A stretch of DNA of 44,792 nucleotides, taken from NCBI GenBank assembly GCA_944324045.1, contig CALUUT010000008.1, forward strand, positions 1 to 44,792, in the 5' to 3' direction. Source of the DNA: an uncultured Desulfovibrionaceae bacterium (GTDB lineage Bacteria; Desulfobacterota; Desulfovibrionia; Desulfovibrionales; Desulfovibrionaceae). The position numbers and the translations under genes were made by a program. Under the pieces are notes generated by a model, which was not told the DNA's origin, searched no databases, and saw only the letters and a program-made list of their open reading frames with translations. The first letter of the stretch is position 1. Every line of letters starts with the position of its first letter. Positions 16,201-21,821 of the stretch are shown one piece after another.

Positions 16201-16318
16201 AGAAACAGGAAGAAGAACGGGAAACGTTGGAACGGCGGCGGAAAGAGCGCCGGAAGACACACTCAGTCCGTATTGCAGCGCATGGATTTTCCATACTGAG
16301 CATTATCCGGTCTTTAAA

Positions 16319-16474
16319 CAATAAGGCAGCAAAGCCCAAGAGGCGCTTTGCGTTTGGGAGGGGTGCGCATCCCCTCCCAGACGTTGCGCCCATCTGATGC
16401 CCCGCGAGAAAAGGCGCGGGGTGGGGCTATACGGCCTTTTAGCCTTCGGCCTCAAACCACAGAGGAAGATAGAT
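16319..16474 (+). repeat. Repeat element, copy A
   Basis: Starts CAATAAGGCAGCAAAGCCC and ends with CTCAAACCACAGAGGAAG ATAGATGA. It shares its ends with copy B at 21477-21570, which lies in opposite orientation. The last 52 bases differ at about five positions. Copy A carries an extra 60-odd bases in the middle, forming two hairpins (GGGAGGGG/CCCCTCCC at 16356-16378, and CCCCGCG/CGCGGGG near 16400-16421). Both copies end with a ribosome-site-like AGAGGAAG followed by ATG. The open frame GLYGL-AFGLKPQRKID is retained in both. Confidence 0.8.
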
Positions 16475-16678
16475 GACGAAACGGGAGATATCGATATTAT
16501 TACTATTCAGCTCACGCCGAAACAAATTCAGAAGTTCAACGGAGAAGCAAAAAACTTAAGCAATGGCATACGTTATCGTCCTCATCTGCGAGCAGGGTTG
16601 CGATGAAACACAAATCTTACTATCCTTTCTTGTATAAAAATTAATTATTTCAATTAGATATATAATTCAAAGCCATCG

Positions 16679-16722
16679 TTGACAGTAAAATGGAAGCAGA
16701 ATATATTCCGACCAGTCGGTAT
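16679..16722 (+). promoter_or_regulatory. Near-consensus promoter with TetR-type operator
   Basis: TTGACA (16679-16684), 17-base spacer, TATATT (16702-16707): a near-ideal sigma-70 promoter. The -10 is overlapped by the inverted repeat ATTCCGAC-CA-GTCGGTAT (16705-16722), one mismatch from perfect. GAC..GTC palindromes of this kind are common operators for TetR-family regulators. The tetR-like gene starts about 480 bases downstream, so a long leader or a lost gene is implied. Confidence 0.65.
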
Positions 16723-17071
16723 TTTAAAAAATCGCATCCCCGCAATGCTTCGCAAAAGAAGCAGAAAAAAGTGGACATAGTGCAACCACAGTTCACGCTG
16801 AGACAAAGAATAAATGGAGGTCCTGCCTGTGAATATTGCTAATCAAAGCAGAAGGGAATCTATATTCAAATGATGAAATACAGAATATATACATACTTAT
16901 ATAAGAAGTAGACATTATTGCATCTGTAAATACAATAACTGATATAAAAATAATATTCTAATTAAAAATTAGACAAGATGAATATTGAGTTATATTTGAA
17001 ACAGTACATATAACACTAAAATATCATAACATTATATCATTATCATTTATTTTTATACATATAATATGAAA

Positions 17072-17089
17072 ATTATAACATGTTATAAT
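17072..17089. promoter_or_regulatory. Perfect 18-bp palindrome upstream of tetR-like gene
   Basis: ATTATAACATGTTATAAT is a perfect palindrome, 110 bases before the tetR-like start. It contains TATAAT (17084-17089), so it could be both a -10 element and an operator for the regulator, although no -35 is found at the usual distance. Confidence 0.45.
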
Positions 17090-17199
17090 GATAACAATAA
17101 ATCTCCATATAGAACAGGAAAACATATAACGCTGGTAGGTTTCTTTAAAACTGTAACTCAAAAAATAATCAATATTACATAGTTGTTTGGGATGACGTA

Positions 17200-17790
17200 A
17201 TGGCAAAACGTGAAGATCAAAGAAAAATGACCAAGGAAAAAATTCTCCAAGCGGCAGCGGCCTGTTTTGCTGAAAAAGGCTACTCAGGCTGCTCAGTTCA
17301 GGATATTGCAGAGCGCGCCGGCCTAAGCAAAGGAGCCTTATATGGACACTTTCATAGTAAGGATGAGTTGTTTAAGGCTATGATATCAATAGAACATGGT
17401 CTTGGAGCTGAAAGAGCGAGACAGGCAGCGGAAAAACCTCCCTACTTGGATGGCATTATCTGGTTCATGACGGAATGTATCCGCAATTCTGGTTTCCCTA
17501 TGGATCACCGATTATGGGCTGAAGTTTTGGCTGTAGCTGCGCGCAACGCCGACATGAAGAATGCCTTTATAGCCAGTGAACGAGCAACCAGAAAAATTTT
17601 TATGAATCTCCTAGAGAAAGCATCCGCGGCTGGTGAAATAGATGCGACACTGGATATAAATGCAATATCCATCTGGTTGTATGCGCTTGGCGATGGTTTA
17701 ATTGCAAGAATTGCGGATGACCCGGATTTTGAATTTCAAAAACATTTTACAGTATTTGAAACATTAGTACGTAGAGCTCTGAAAGCATAA
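17200..17790 (+). CDS. TetR-family transcriptional regulator
   Basis: A 196-residue regulator. The N-terminal helix-turn-helix is typical: KEKILQAAAACFAEKGYSG, then VQDIAERAGLSKGALYGHFHSKDELF (about residues 30-58). The C-terminal ligand domain is variable, as usual. It leads a plus-strand run with the Tat-signal TIGR04076-type protein (19 bases later) and the secreted MBL-fold hydrolase, so it probably regulates this operon. The TetR-type operator at 16705-16722 is a candidate target. The operon is AT-rich compared with the surroundings, a sign of transfer. Confidence 0.92.
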   Translation: MAKREDQRKMTKEKILQAAAACFAEKGYSGCSVQDIAERAGLSKGALYGHFHSKDELFKAMISIEHGLGAERARQAAEKPPYLDGIIWFMTECIRNSGFPMDHRLWAEVLAVAARNADMKNAFIASERATRKIFMNLLEKASAAGEIDATLDINAISIWLYALGDGLIARIADDPDFEFQKHFTVFETLVRRALKA

Positions 17791-17809
17791 TCATTCTTTG
17801 GAGAGAAAT

Positions 17810-18262
17810 ATGAACAGACGAGAATTTATTAAAAACTCAGCAATAGTAGGGGCCAGTTCTGTAATTATTAATAGTGGTGCATCTCATGCAAATGATATAA
17901 CACAATCTTCACCAAACAAGGAAGAAAATATTATGACGAAAAAATACAAATGCAAAATTACTGTATTAAAGCGTGAATATAACCAAGAACTTGCTGATAA
18001 GTATCTTGCCAATCCCAAAGTTGGCCCTTGCGATCTATTCAAAGATGGCCAGGAAATTATCATAGACAGTGACGGGTTTTGGAAAATGCTTTATGGAAAC
18101 TTTTGTTCCGAAGCATGGGATTGCATCAGTAGATATGTATATGCCGCGATTCAGGGAGGCTCTATTATGCGCGACTGGACAAATGATGAAAAAATCATGA
18201 TTGCATGCTGCAATGATGGTGTTAGACCAGTCATTTTCAAGATTGAACGCATAGAAGCCTAA
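17810..18262 (+). CDS. TIGR04076-like protein with Tat-type signal
   Basis: A 150-residue protein. The start MNRREFIKNSAIVG fits a twin-arginine signal (RR-x-F-I-K), followed by a weakly hydrophobic stretch and a polar linker to about residue 45. The rest matches the TIGR04076 family as I recall it: KCKITVLKREYNQELADKYL, GPCDLFKDGQEI, FCSEAWDCISRYVYAAIQGG and MIACCNDGVRPVIFKIERI. Conserved cysteines suggest metal or redox binding, but the family has no known function. GGAGAG precedes the ATG; an upstream TTG (17798) is less likely. An internal ATG (MTKKYKC) would give a form without the signal. It is followed eight bases later by the MBL gene. Confidence 0.75.
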   Translation: MNRREFIKNSAIVGASSVIINSGASHANDITQSSPNKEENIMTKKYKCKITVLKREYNQELADKYLANPKVGPCDLFKDGQEIIIDSDGFWKMLYGNFCSEAWDCISRYVYAAIQGGSIMRDWTNDEKIMIACCNDGVRPVIFKIERIEA

Positions 18263-18270
18263 AGGAGGAT

Positions 18271-19161
18271 ATGAAAATAATAAAAATATTTTGCACAATA
18301 TTATTTATTTTATTTATAGTTTCACCCGCTTTTGCAGCGGACATATCAACATACATGGTAGGCACAATGAAAATTGTACGCATTGTGGATGGAGTAAATG
18401 GCGTACCTGTTGATTTACTTTATGATGGGAATCGTGATATTATCAATAAACTCGTCCCGAATGGCATATGCCCCAATTTGATTACTTCCTATGTACTTGA
18501 CAGCAAAGAAGGCCTAATGCTTATTGATTCAGGCTTCGGCGATATTGAGCCGGGAGTCATGTATGATAACTTCATAGCAGCGGGATACAATCCAGACAAC
18601 GTAAAAATTGTTCTTCTAACCCACCTGCATGGAGATCACATTGGAGGATTGATTAAAGGGAATCAAAAAATATTCAAAAATGCGACAATATATGTTAATG
18701 ATATTGAATTAAATTTCTGGAAAAACAGAGATAACTATCGAATAGTTCCAGAAATGATGCGTTATTGTTTTGATGCTGTTGATACTCTAATACGCATTTA
18801 TGGACCACAGATAAAAACCTTCAAGGATGGAGAGCAAGTTGTCCCCTGGCTTACCCCCATCAACGTGGCAGGCCATACCGCTGGACATACCATGTTCGAA
18901 CTTAATTATGATGGAGAAAAGCGCTTCATCTGGGGGGATATTATCCATTGTCTTGATGTTCAAGCCAAATATCCAGAAGTAACCGTAGAAGTAGATACGG
19001 ACCGCGAGCAAGCCAAGCTGTCCAGAATGAGGGCGCTAGAATTAGCGGCTGACACTGATATCCTTGTATTCGGTGAACACTTTACCAATCCCGGCGCCGG
19101 GAAATTTTATACATTGCCGGAAGGCGGTTATCGTTTTGTCCCTGTAGAGCCTGAGCAATAA
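18271..19161 (+). CDS. Secreted MBL-fold metallo-hydrolase
   Basis: A 296-residue protein with a Sec signal (MKIIKIFCTILFILF to about AFA at residue 22). The metal-binding motif is HLHGDH (His118, His120, Asp122, His123), then GHTAGH in the second half, WGDIIH supplying the bridging Asp, and GEHF near the C-terminus, completing the metallo-beta-lactamase-fold set. Proteins of this subgroup include lactonases and other periplasmic hydrolases; the substrate cannot be read from sequence. AAAGGAGG precedes the start. It is the last gene of the tetR-TIGR04076-MBL run, and a terminator with a U-tract follows (19161-19213). Confidence 0.88.
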   Translation: MKIIKIFCTILFILFIVSPAFAADISTYMVGTMKIVRIVDGVNGVPVDLLYDGNRDIINKLVPNGICPNLITSYVLDSKEGLMLIDSGFGDIEPGVMYDNFIAAGYNPDNVKIVLLTHLHGDHIGGLIKGNQKIFKNATIYVNDIELNFWKNRDNYRIVPEMMRYCFDAVDTLIRIYGPQIKTFKDGEQVVPWLTPINVAGHTAGHTMFELNYDGEKRFIWGDIIHCLDVQAKYPEVTVEVDTDREQAKLSRMRALELAADTDILVFGEHFTNPGAGKFYTLPEGGYRFVPVEPEQ

Positions 19162-19213
19162 AAAGTCGGGGGATTCCATATAAATATGAAAATAAGCGTC
19201 TCTCCCGATTTTT
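19161..19213 (+). terminator. Terminator of the tetR-TIGR04076-MBL run
   Basis: AAAAGTCGGGGGA (19161-19173) pairs with TCTCCCGATTTTT (19201-19213), using two G-U pairs, around a 27-base loop. The right arm ends in a five-base T-tract. It begins at the stop codon of the MBL gene. Confidence 0.7.
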
Positions 19214-19331
19214 GTATCAGCACATGCGCAACGGATCGGGGCAAAGAAGCATTAAAGAATATATACAGAGAAAAAAGAAAGCAGACTGTCTCTTTTCGCT
19301 TGCCAAATGAACGTTGAACATGATGTGAAAA

Positions 19332-19853
19332 TTACATCATCATTTCTTTTTCAAATACAAAATACTCATCATGAAAGGATAATCCGCTTATAGGTCTGTT
19401 CGGATCGCGATGAGCTTTATTGAAAAACTCTACAATTTTAAAACCGCATTTGTTTACATAGAAATGAATATTCCGTTTCTCAAAATAAGGCGTAATTAAG
19501 CGCCAAACTTTTGTTTGAGGATATTTCAATTCTATACTCCGCCATATTTGCCGTCCAAGCCCTTTACCATGTCTGTTCGGATATATATAAAATAAATCCA
19601 ACCAATTATAGTGAGTATCTCCATCTATTCTAAGTACGACGCCACCAACCCTTTCATCATCCGCATATATGGCATATGTCTCGCATTGCGGATTATATAA
19701 AGAAATGTCAATATCTTCATCAAGTATAATATTTCCGTCTTCTTTCGACAAACCAAACTCATTTATTACCGATATGGAAAATATATTTTTCACATCTTTG
19801 CGAAACTCGCTATACTCCCATTCTTCCAGACGTTTGAATGTAATATTTTCCAT
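19332..19853 (-). CDS. GNAT-family acetyltransferase
   Basis: A 173-residue protein of the GNAT fold, which transfers acetyl from acetyl-CoA to an amine. The CoA-binding region reads LFYIYPNRHGKGLGRQIWRSIE (about residues 98-119) with the motif RHGKGLG matching R/QxxGxG/A, preceded by the strand GGVVLRIDG and followed by VWRLITPYFEKRNIHFYVNKCGFKIVEFF, a typical GNAT C-terminus. I choose ATG at 19853 (MENITFKRL); AAAGGA lies very close to it, and a longer frame starts at a TTG at 19907. The gene is AT-rich and stands alone in the accessory segment. Substrate unknown. Confidence 0.82.
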   Translation of the reverse strand: MENITFKRLEEWEYSEFRKDVKNIFSISVINEFGLSKEDGNIILDEDIDISLYNPQCETYAIYADDERVGGVVLRIDGDTHYNWLDLFYIYPNRHGKGLGRQIWRSIELKYPQTKVWRLITPYFEKRNIHFYVNKCGFKIVEFFNKAHRDPNRPISGLSFHDEYFVFEKEMMM

Positions 19854-20158
19854 TTCCTTTACTCTATTAATATATTTGAATAGTTGTTTGCTTTGCGTAC
19901 CCCGCAAATTTCTATCCGCAAAGACATTTTTTCATGCGGTGCAAGTACCGTTGAAACCGCCAATAAGCCAACAGACCCCCTCTGGGCATCCCTGTTCACT
20001 TCGCAGAAGCGGGCAAAAACATGCTTCAGCGCCCCTGATATTTATGAGTTGCTCTCTAAAAAGAAACTGGATATTCAATGGCAGCACGTTTGTATTTCGG
20101 GCGCACCGAAACCGTTTGCTGTCTCCCGCTGGTCAAAATAGTTTATACGCCCTGCTCG
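19854..20158. other. Gap between GNAT and alpha/beta hydrolase genes
   Basis: A 305-base stretch where base composition changes from AT-rich to GC-balanced near 19920. A plus-strand frame at 19884-20141 ends plausibly (KLDIQWQHVCISGAPKPF) but has no ribosome site and no family I recognise; it may be gene debris. Nothing else is identified. Confidence 0.4.
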
Positions 20159-21181
20159 TCAATCCAACTCTTTCTCGTGCAGCCACTTCGCCAGAAGCGC
20201 TGCCACCTCCGTATTGTTCAAGTCGGACATTGGAAAGTGCGTGTTGCCATGCAGCCCCGCTTCAGGCAGATGGACGACCGCAACATCTCCGCCCAACCTG
20301 TTCAGCATTTCCGCCCAATGCCGCATCAGGCGCAAACGGCGTGTCCATTCGTAGATTTCGGGACGTTCATCCGTCTCCGGCAGGTTATCGCCATAATACA
20401 CCACTATCGGGACTTTGGTGTATTCCATAAAGGTCTCCATCGGCACTTCGACGCCTTCCGTCTTCTTGGACAGGGTCAGTATCCTGCCTTCTTCGGGCAC
20501 CTGTCCTTCGGGAAAAGGAATGCCGCCGCCCGGCTCGTATGACGCGATGCCTTTGATGTTCTTCGTCTTGAGCAAAGTCTGCCAGCCTACTGGCCCTCCC
20601 TGCGAATGGGTGACAAAAACAGCAGAACCTATTTTGTCGAACAAGGCGGCGTAGGCGTCCGAATATACGTCGAAATCCGCCGTGCCAAGCGTTGGCGTCA
20701 TCTGCCGGAAGTATTGATTCAGGGCTTCAGGAGTCCGGCTGAACTGTACATTTTCGAAATAGTCCGGCCAAATGCCCACGCGAAAACGATTGAACCACAC
20801 TTCTTCGTCGAAGGTTGGCGTTATGGTGACGATTTCCGTGCCGCGTCCCGCATTGCCGCGCCGGGGCTGGTCTACCAAGTAAACCGAAAAGCCTTTGCGT
20901 AAGAACATATTCTGGAAGCCCTCGCGTCCGTCCGGCGTCGTCTCCCATGTCTTGGAAAACTGCCCCACTCCGTGAGCGAAGACCAACGGATACTTCCGCG
21001 CATCGACAGGTTTTTGGTAAAACACGTAGGCATGGTCGTCGTGATACCTGCGCCCCAGCGAATCGGTCAGTACAGTGCCGCCCACGGCGAAACTGCCCTG
21101 TTCGGCAATCTTCAACACGTTGTCGTCCGAACACCCCATGAGCAAAACCATGCCGATTATGAATGCCGCTGTTTTTTTCAT
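20159..21181 (-). CDS. Lipoprotein alpha/beta hydrolase (esterase-like)
   Basis: A 340-residue protein with a lipoprotein signal (MKKTAAFIIGMVLLMGC, lipidated Cys17). The hydrolase core has PLVFAHGVGQFSKTWE (oxyanion region), GFSVYLVDQPRRGNAG, the nucleophile elbow THSQGGP with Ser193, and GLHGNTHFPMSDLNN near the C-terminus, which may carry the catalytic His. This is a serine hydrolase of the alpha/beta fold, presumably anchored in the envelope; the substrate is unknown. I choose ATG at 21181; the frame extends upstream to 21244 without a ribosome site. The stop of a broken upstream frame lies one base before this ATG (TAAtATG), so it was probably second in an operon. Confidence 0.82.
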   Translation of the reverse strand: MKKTAAFIIGMVLLMGCSDDNVLKIAEQGSFAVGGTVLTDSLGRRYHDDHAYVFYQKPVDARKYPLVFAHGVGQFSKTWETTPDGREGFQNMFLRKGFSVYLVDQPRRGNAGRGTEIVTITPTFDEEVWFNRFRVGIWPDYFENVQFSRTPEALNQYFRQMTPTLGTADFDVYSDAYAALFDKIGSAVFVTHSQGGPVGWQTLLKTKNIKGIASYEPGGGIPFPEGQVPEEGRILTLSKKTEGVEVPMETFMEYTKVPIVVYYGDNLPETDERPEIYEWTRRLRLMRHWAEMLNRLGGDVAVVHLPEAGLHGNTHFPMSDLNNTEVAALLAKWLHEKELD

Positions 21182-21182
21182 A

Positions 21183-21293
21183 TTATTTCCGCATCTTGAA
21201 TTCCTGCAATGCATCATGGAGGCTGCCTGGCGCTGGCATGGCAAAAACGGCGGCTTCCAGCTCCTCTATCTCGTCATTCGTAAAATTATATAA
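21183..21293 (-). pseudogene. 3' remnant of a gene upstream of the hydrolase
   Basis: The minus strand from 21293 to the TAA at 21185-21183 encodes 36 residues of convincing protein (FTNDEIEELEAAVFAMPAPG then SLHDALQEFKMRK), ending one base before the hydrolase ATG. A stop codon precedes it in frame at 21294-21296 and there is no start codon. This looks like the tail of a gene, cotranscribed with the hydrolase, whose upstream part has been lost close to repeat copy B. The family is not recognised. Confidence 0.5.
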
Positions 21294-21476
21294 TTAGTAG
21301 TCAAAAATACTCATTACGGCAACCTGAAATACGGACGCAGCATTTATATGATTGCCCACAAGGCGCGATGCTTTTTCTCGCGCCGGGACAAGGCATGAGG
21401 TCGCAAGACTGCGGCAAGCTGCATCAGTCTCAAGATTGGGCGGCGCCATTTCATCCTGAATTTTTTCGCGGCGCTT

Positions 21477-21570
21477 CATCTATCTTCCTCTGTGGTTTGA
21501 GACCGAAGGCCGGAAGGCCATATAGCCCCTCCCAAGCGCAAAGCCCTGAAGGGCTTTGCTGCCTTATTGC
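21477..21570 (-). repeat. Repeat element, copy B (inverted)
   Basis: Read on the minus strand, it begins GCAATAAGGCAGCAAAGCCC, forms a hairpin (GCAAAGCCC-TTCA-GGGCTTTGC), continues CTTGGGAGGGGCTATATGG and ends CAAACCACAGAGGAAG ATAGATGA. It shares both ends with copy A at 16319-16474 but lacks that copy's central hairpins. A small open frame begins at its terminal ATG (61 codons to 21294) but does not look like a typical protein. Confidence 0.8.
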
Positions 21571-21821
21571 TTGTCGCGCGGAATAAAAGATTATGCCTAT
21601 TTCCCGCACAACGCCAACGAAGCCCCGCATCGTTCCGCTGTAAAGCGGAAAACGATTATCGGCCGCTCCCATATGCGGCTTGCGCGCATGGCCTGCGCCG
21701 TCCCGATTTTCCCGCCATTCCTTTCGTCAATCCCTTCCATGCGCGCAATTCATTCTTGCTGTTTGGCACGACTCGCTATATCGTGCATCCCCCAACGACT
21801 AACGATAACGGAGAATGTTTC
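21571..21821. other. Intergenic region between repeat copy B and ychF
   Basis: This 251-base stretch contains the upstream region of ychF. An open frame runs through it in phase with ychF but has no ribosome site. A short inverted repeat around CGTTCCGCTGTAAAGCGGAA (21629-21650) is seen. No gene is identified. Confidence 0.4.

Follow-up and report, generated by a model that had tools for sequence, protein, structure and literature searches.

A dispersed Desulfovibrionaceae repeat that adjoins ATGA and ends in a Shine-Dalgarno-like sequence is probably a short non-autonomous mobile element

In this study, we asked what the hairpin-rich repeat is that occurs twice, in opposite orientations, in a 44,792-nt stretch of DNA from an uncultured Desulfovibrionaceae bacterium (the window), and whether the two copies delimit a 5-kb accessory segment as a unit. 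The inverted pair described in the initial annotation is present: 58 nt at 16419–16476 and 21476–21533 are complementary at 90%, and exact 24-mer and 18-mer ends are common to both copies (chance expectation 0.00 and 0.06, respectively). Family alignment refined the limits of the copies, each of which is directly followed by ATGA. Copy 1 is a full-length, 156-nt type I element (16317–16472, plus strand; covariance-model match of 176.9 bits) whose right end bears the Shine-Dalgarno-like sequence AGAGGAAG (16461–16468, plus strand), conserved in the family. It adjoins an ATGA (16473–16476, plus strand), the role of which as a target is taken from empty sites in relatives, and since this ATGA opens a frame of only 28 codons, copy 1 is regarded as intergenic. 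Copy 2, also of type I, is 92 nt long (21480–21571, minus strand; 97.4 bits with the covariance model), ~63 internal nucleotides comprising hairpins 2 and 3 being deleted between short GGGNGGGGC matches in the family alignment, and its ATGA target (21476–21479, minus strand; TCAT on the plus strand) opens a putative 61-codon frame. The element folds more strongly than shuffled sequences, both as RNA (z = -4.9) and as DNA (z = -3.5). The reading we favor, at a probability of roughly 0.78, takes the repeat for a small, non-autonomous mobile element found in Desulfovibrionaceae that has ATGA as its target, is tolerated at start codons through its own Shine-Dalgarno sequence and may move by a single-strand-type mechanism.

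A search of the genome of origin and its relatives, which had been proposed as the check on the pair, identified a dispersed repeat with relatives in one bacterial family. The window's own genome (2.55 Mb in 117 contigs) has 40 full or partial copies by nucleotide search, 56 matches to a 22-base right-end pattern (reversed control, 0) and ~88 copies by covariance model at E<1e-3. Its well-matched copies have 75–92% identity to the query and are best conserved over the outermost 20 bases at the left end and 25 at the right end. Among 348 genomes of the order, matches were found in the window's own family only (36 genomes in 10 genera), with strong type I matches in ~13 genomes of 7 genera. A GTDB scan with the common right-end pattern matched Candidatus Mailhella excrementigallinarum, a rabbit Mailhella sp., Desulfovibrio piger PG-251-APC-1 and rumen or gut MAGs of Desulfovibrio and Desulfovibrionaceae, whereas the exact 22-mer of the own genome had 0 matches in other GTDB genomes because every lineage has its own variant. 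In the genomes G118, G122 and G181 the copies are nearly identical within each genome and their flanks are unrelated, which is the pattern of recent amplification rather than of vertical inheritance of loci; comparison of the lineages showed that amplification occurred separately in several genera. The phage records and viral contigs searched yielded no match to the element, Rfam gave nothing credible at gathering or permissive thresholds, and the literature searched, which left many subscription papers beyond its reach, yielded no earlier account of the element.

The genes between the copies are mostly as initially annotated: TetR (17200–17790), TIGR04076 (17810–18262) and metallo-beta-lactamase-fold (18271–19161) genes on the plus strand, and GNAT (19332–19853) and alpha/beta hydrolase (20159–21181) genes on the minus strand. 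The three genes at 17200–19161 are AT-rich, the metallo-beta-lactamase being lactonase-like (NF047979 match below its cut-off), and resemble a short operon gained by horizontal transfer. That the inverted copies move or invert this segment as a composite unit is suggested by their 5-kb spacing and the accessory genes they enclose, but the placement of copies across the genome speaks against it. The own genome has 19 pairs of neighboring elements ≤5.3 kb apart, compared with 12.8 at random placement, and seven inverted pairs within that distance, compared with 6.4 ± 2.3 at random. As this inverted-pair count matches random expectation at such a copy density, the segment is not a special unit, and since bracketing is at chance level we judged the genes at 17200–21181 to lie outside the element. 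In addition, copy 2 has an internal deletion and the two copies have diverged, leaving the composite unit with hardly any probability. The claim of a bracketed unit was thus not upheld; what had been named as its contrary, an ordinary dispersed repeat unrelated to variable segments, largely describes the ~88 dispersed copies and their chance-level pairing.

Aligning 31 copies from nine genomes revealed four hairpins, in which 15 of 33 base pairs are changed on both sides. Covariation between lineages amounts to 68 double-change cells versus 26 in shuffles, and pairing within the stems reaches 93.9% versus 33–56% when the partners are slid. In the stems of the old copies in the own genome, G-T and A-C cells are equally frequent (83 versus 82, counted with the kinship of copies ignored), as decay after insertion would produce, so single copies are apparently not kept folded for the host. 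This suggests that the stem structure may serve movement in active lineages and not host regulation.

Evidence on the site of insertion came from Mailhella, the genus of G118 and a relative of the window's species, in which we joined the two flanks of each of 13 G118 copies and looked for them in 19 genomes of the genus. Three G118 sites have empty counterparts. Those of L093 are a paralogue within G118 itself and a sequence in a congener; the other two sites are L102, which lies upstream of rsmD, and L103, at the gene after a response regulator. The empty sequence of L093 reads through ...GGGGCTTGGTG directly into ATGAACATAC (GGTG followed by ATGAAC), with nothing duplicated and nothing lost. 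These comparisons demonstrate insertion in Mailhella exactly 5′ of ATGA without target duplication or deletion, the cut point being certain to plus or minus one base since nearly all left ends start with A. It follows from the same comparison that the final ATG(A) is target and not element. ATGA stands to the right of 14/14 G118 copies and of 109 of 149 copies over five genomes, many of the other 40 being degraded, and the left flanks have no consensus. At L094 in G118 and L197 in the own genome, the ATGA that an element adjoins is that of another element. One G118 element (L092, contig C40) lies inside an IS200 tnpA fragment, where it adjoins an ATGA; this fragment has an intact relative on G118 contig C13. 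The two ends of the element, AGCAATAAGG and CTATCTTCCT, do not match as terminal inverted repeats; with unmatched ends and no target duplication at empty sites, a MITE of the terminal-inverted-repeat type was ruled out.

In about a quarter of the 149 copies, the right end falls at the start of a coding sequence (gltX, bioD, rsmD, tpiA, aroQ, rnhA, fabZ). The junction ATG opens a reading frame of at least 100 codons in 40 of 149 copies, whereas the two other frames give 5 and 17; such a frame is opened by 13/27 copies in G122 and 13/35 in G104. Because Pfam domains begin at residues 1–4 of these products (GltX, a PglD-like transferase, BioD, RsmD, an epimerase, triosephosphate isomerase and RNase H), the junction ATG is very likely the true start of these genes. 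Immediately left of the junction, 16 of 32 genic copies have a native Shine-Dalgarno sequence, versus 16 of 97 others (p = 3e-4). The right end keeps AAGGA or GAGGA 6–7 nt before the ATG, with intervening letters that vary by family (AGATAG, AGTAAG, AGCTCAG, AGTTCTG or ATTTTTG), and the position and conservation of this Shine-Dalgarno sequence point to a ribosome-binding role. Insertion at a start codon would displace the native ribosome-binding site and strand the native Shine-Dalgarno sequence upstream, where that of the element, 6–7 nt from the junction, would replace it. Relative to a crude count of ATGA in the window (14 at starts, 101 intergenic and 392 intragenic), insertions at start sites are at least as common as at intergenic ATGA and intragenic ones are rare, as would be expected if start-site insertions are tolerated. 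We consider it likely that insertion at starts, even those of gltX and tpiA, is tolerated because the element supplies a Shine-Dalgarno sequence. The suggestion in the initial annotation of a mobile or duplicated gene leader was therefore near the truth, in that the repeat has been mobile in relatives and has a Shine-Dalgarno sequence at its end; it erred in including the ATG, which comes from the target.

A second type of element, type II, is ~205 nt long, with the left end ATGTTTCAATCCACA and the same right-end module as type I (GGTYTCAAACCAYAAAGGAA-N6/7-ATGA; reversed-pattern controls, 0), and also occurs in the own genome (L248 and L276). Three type II copies with ACGA at the right still carry ATG at the left, so the left ATG would belong to the element itself, which suggests that it is not a target duplication. 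When a type II element is at a gene start, the native Shine-Dalgarno sequence would stand at normal spacing before this left ATG, making a short leader peptide possible. Further types at L238, L272, L273 and L345 (in G104 and G118) combine the common right-end module with different left halves, so types I and II may not be the whole of the element family. On contig C45 of G000 (L135:1886-2021), two inverted left ends are fused into a long palindrome (AATGAGGCAGCAAAGCCC...GGGCTTTGCTGCCTCATT) near a broken IS200 tnpA, apparently by deletion between inverted copies.

How the element moves may be considered from the opposite strand, where a single strand with subterminal hairpins would insert 3′ of TCAT and an IS200/IS605- or REP-like (HUH) mechanism would be driven in trans. 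We put forward single-strand HUH-type insertion 3′ of TCAT by an enzyme in trans only tentatively, at slightly below an even chance. The element resembles non-autonomous derivatives of IS200/IS605 (IS608, PMC5934647) in having a fixed tetranucleotide at one end only and no duplication, hairpins near both ends without terminal inverted repeats, and, on the left, guide-like letters 5′ of a hairpin that fit the target. IS608 follows TTAC, and its pairing rule predicts the guide GANA for a TCAT target (PMC5934647). GAGA or GAAA, looked for once the target was seen, is at the predicted left-hand guide place in every family, which supports an IS608-type reading but is not proof of it; the right-hand guide expected by the same rule fits G118 and G122 with wobble, but not G181 or type II. 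Unlike IS200/IS605 elements, the repeat has an ATGA/TCAT target, a Shine-Dalgarno sequence at its end, four or more hairpins along its full length and no transposase copy found with its ends. No Y1 transposase gene with the element's ends or adjoining an element was found in the draft carrier genomes, and PF01797 had no match in the drafts G122, G202, G050, G138 and G079, yet G122 (92% complete) and G202 (65% complete) look recently active. The abundant IS200 copies of G311 were rejected as a source because they have other ends and other targets. This IS200-like element (L381-L393 and L396) is ~0.7 kb long, encodes a 157-aa TnpA, starts TTATGGGCTTTAGCC and, in nearly every copy examined, lies in the T-tract of intrinsic-terminator-like hairpins. 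In G122 and G202, contigs that end ~127 nt into an element suggested a longer autonomous copy; this was also rejected, as assembly breaks at identical ~160-nt copies fit these ends.

A RAYT (TnpA-REP) transposase would be the mover if the repeat were REP/BIME-like. High copy number, lack of coding capacity and single-strand hairpins are features of REP/REPIN-RAYT systems (PMC3733652, PMC8266576), several families have GTAG before hairpin 1 at the left end, a RAYT-like gene is present in G181, and the guide logic of REPs resembles that of IS608 (PMC8266576). However, a unit of ~160–205 nt with four hairpins is much longer than a 20–40-bp palindrome, the ATGA target is precise, no element adjoins the RAYT gene and PF01797 has no match in G122, G050, G138 and G079, which make this reading unlikely. 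A further reading makes the repeat a standalone HEARO/IscB (OMEGA) guide-RNA element whose target-adjacent motif would be ATGA. HEARO elements, as reportedly described by Weinberg in 2009, insert 5′ of ATGA or GTGA, and they are similar to the repeat in size, heavy structure and mobility. Against this, the element has no match to Rfam RF02033 even at E<=10, and the IscB domain RRXRR (PF14239) had no match in 13 carrier or related genomes, a search in which the control genomes were equally silent; we regard a HEARO/IscB origin as improbable.

The repeat could also be a regulatory leader RNA of the host, similar to a riboswitch or attenuator, that was duplicated to many genes and kept for regulation. 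Such a leader would account for a structured and covarying element often found directly upstream of genes, in sense orientation and with a Shine-Dalgarno sequence. It would not account for most copies lying away from gene starts, the symmetric decay of stems in old copies, precise insertions between congeners, the copy inside a transposase gene or target genes with no common pathway, and we consider it highly improbable. BOX, RUP and similar small interspersed repeats are short, dispersed, non-coding, structured and probably moved in trans. The Desulfovibrionaceae element inserts at start codons and brings a ribosome-binding site of its own, features that these repeats are not known to have.

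Mobile elements that land at a start codon normally silence the gene. If our reading is correct, an element that brings its own ribosome-binding site to the start codon would show how some 100 copies can be maintained in a compact genome, and such an element would naturally give rise to new 5′ leaders and changed rates of translation. It is about as likely as not that these repeats represent an undescribed class of start-codon-compatible non-autonomous single-strand transposons, which would recognize ATGA and bring with them a mobile ribosome-binding site, and whose type II members would, through their left ATG, let the stranded native Shine-Dalgarno sequence read a leader peptide. Such elements may be rewiring how translation of housekeeping genes starts throughout this bacterial family.
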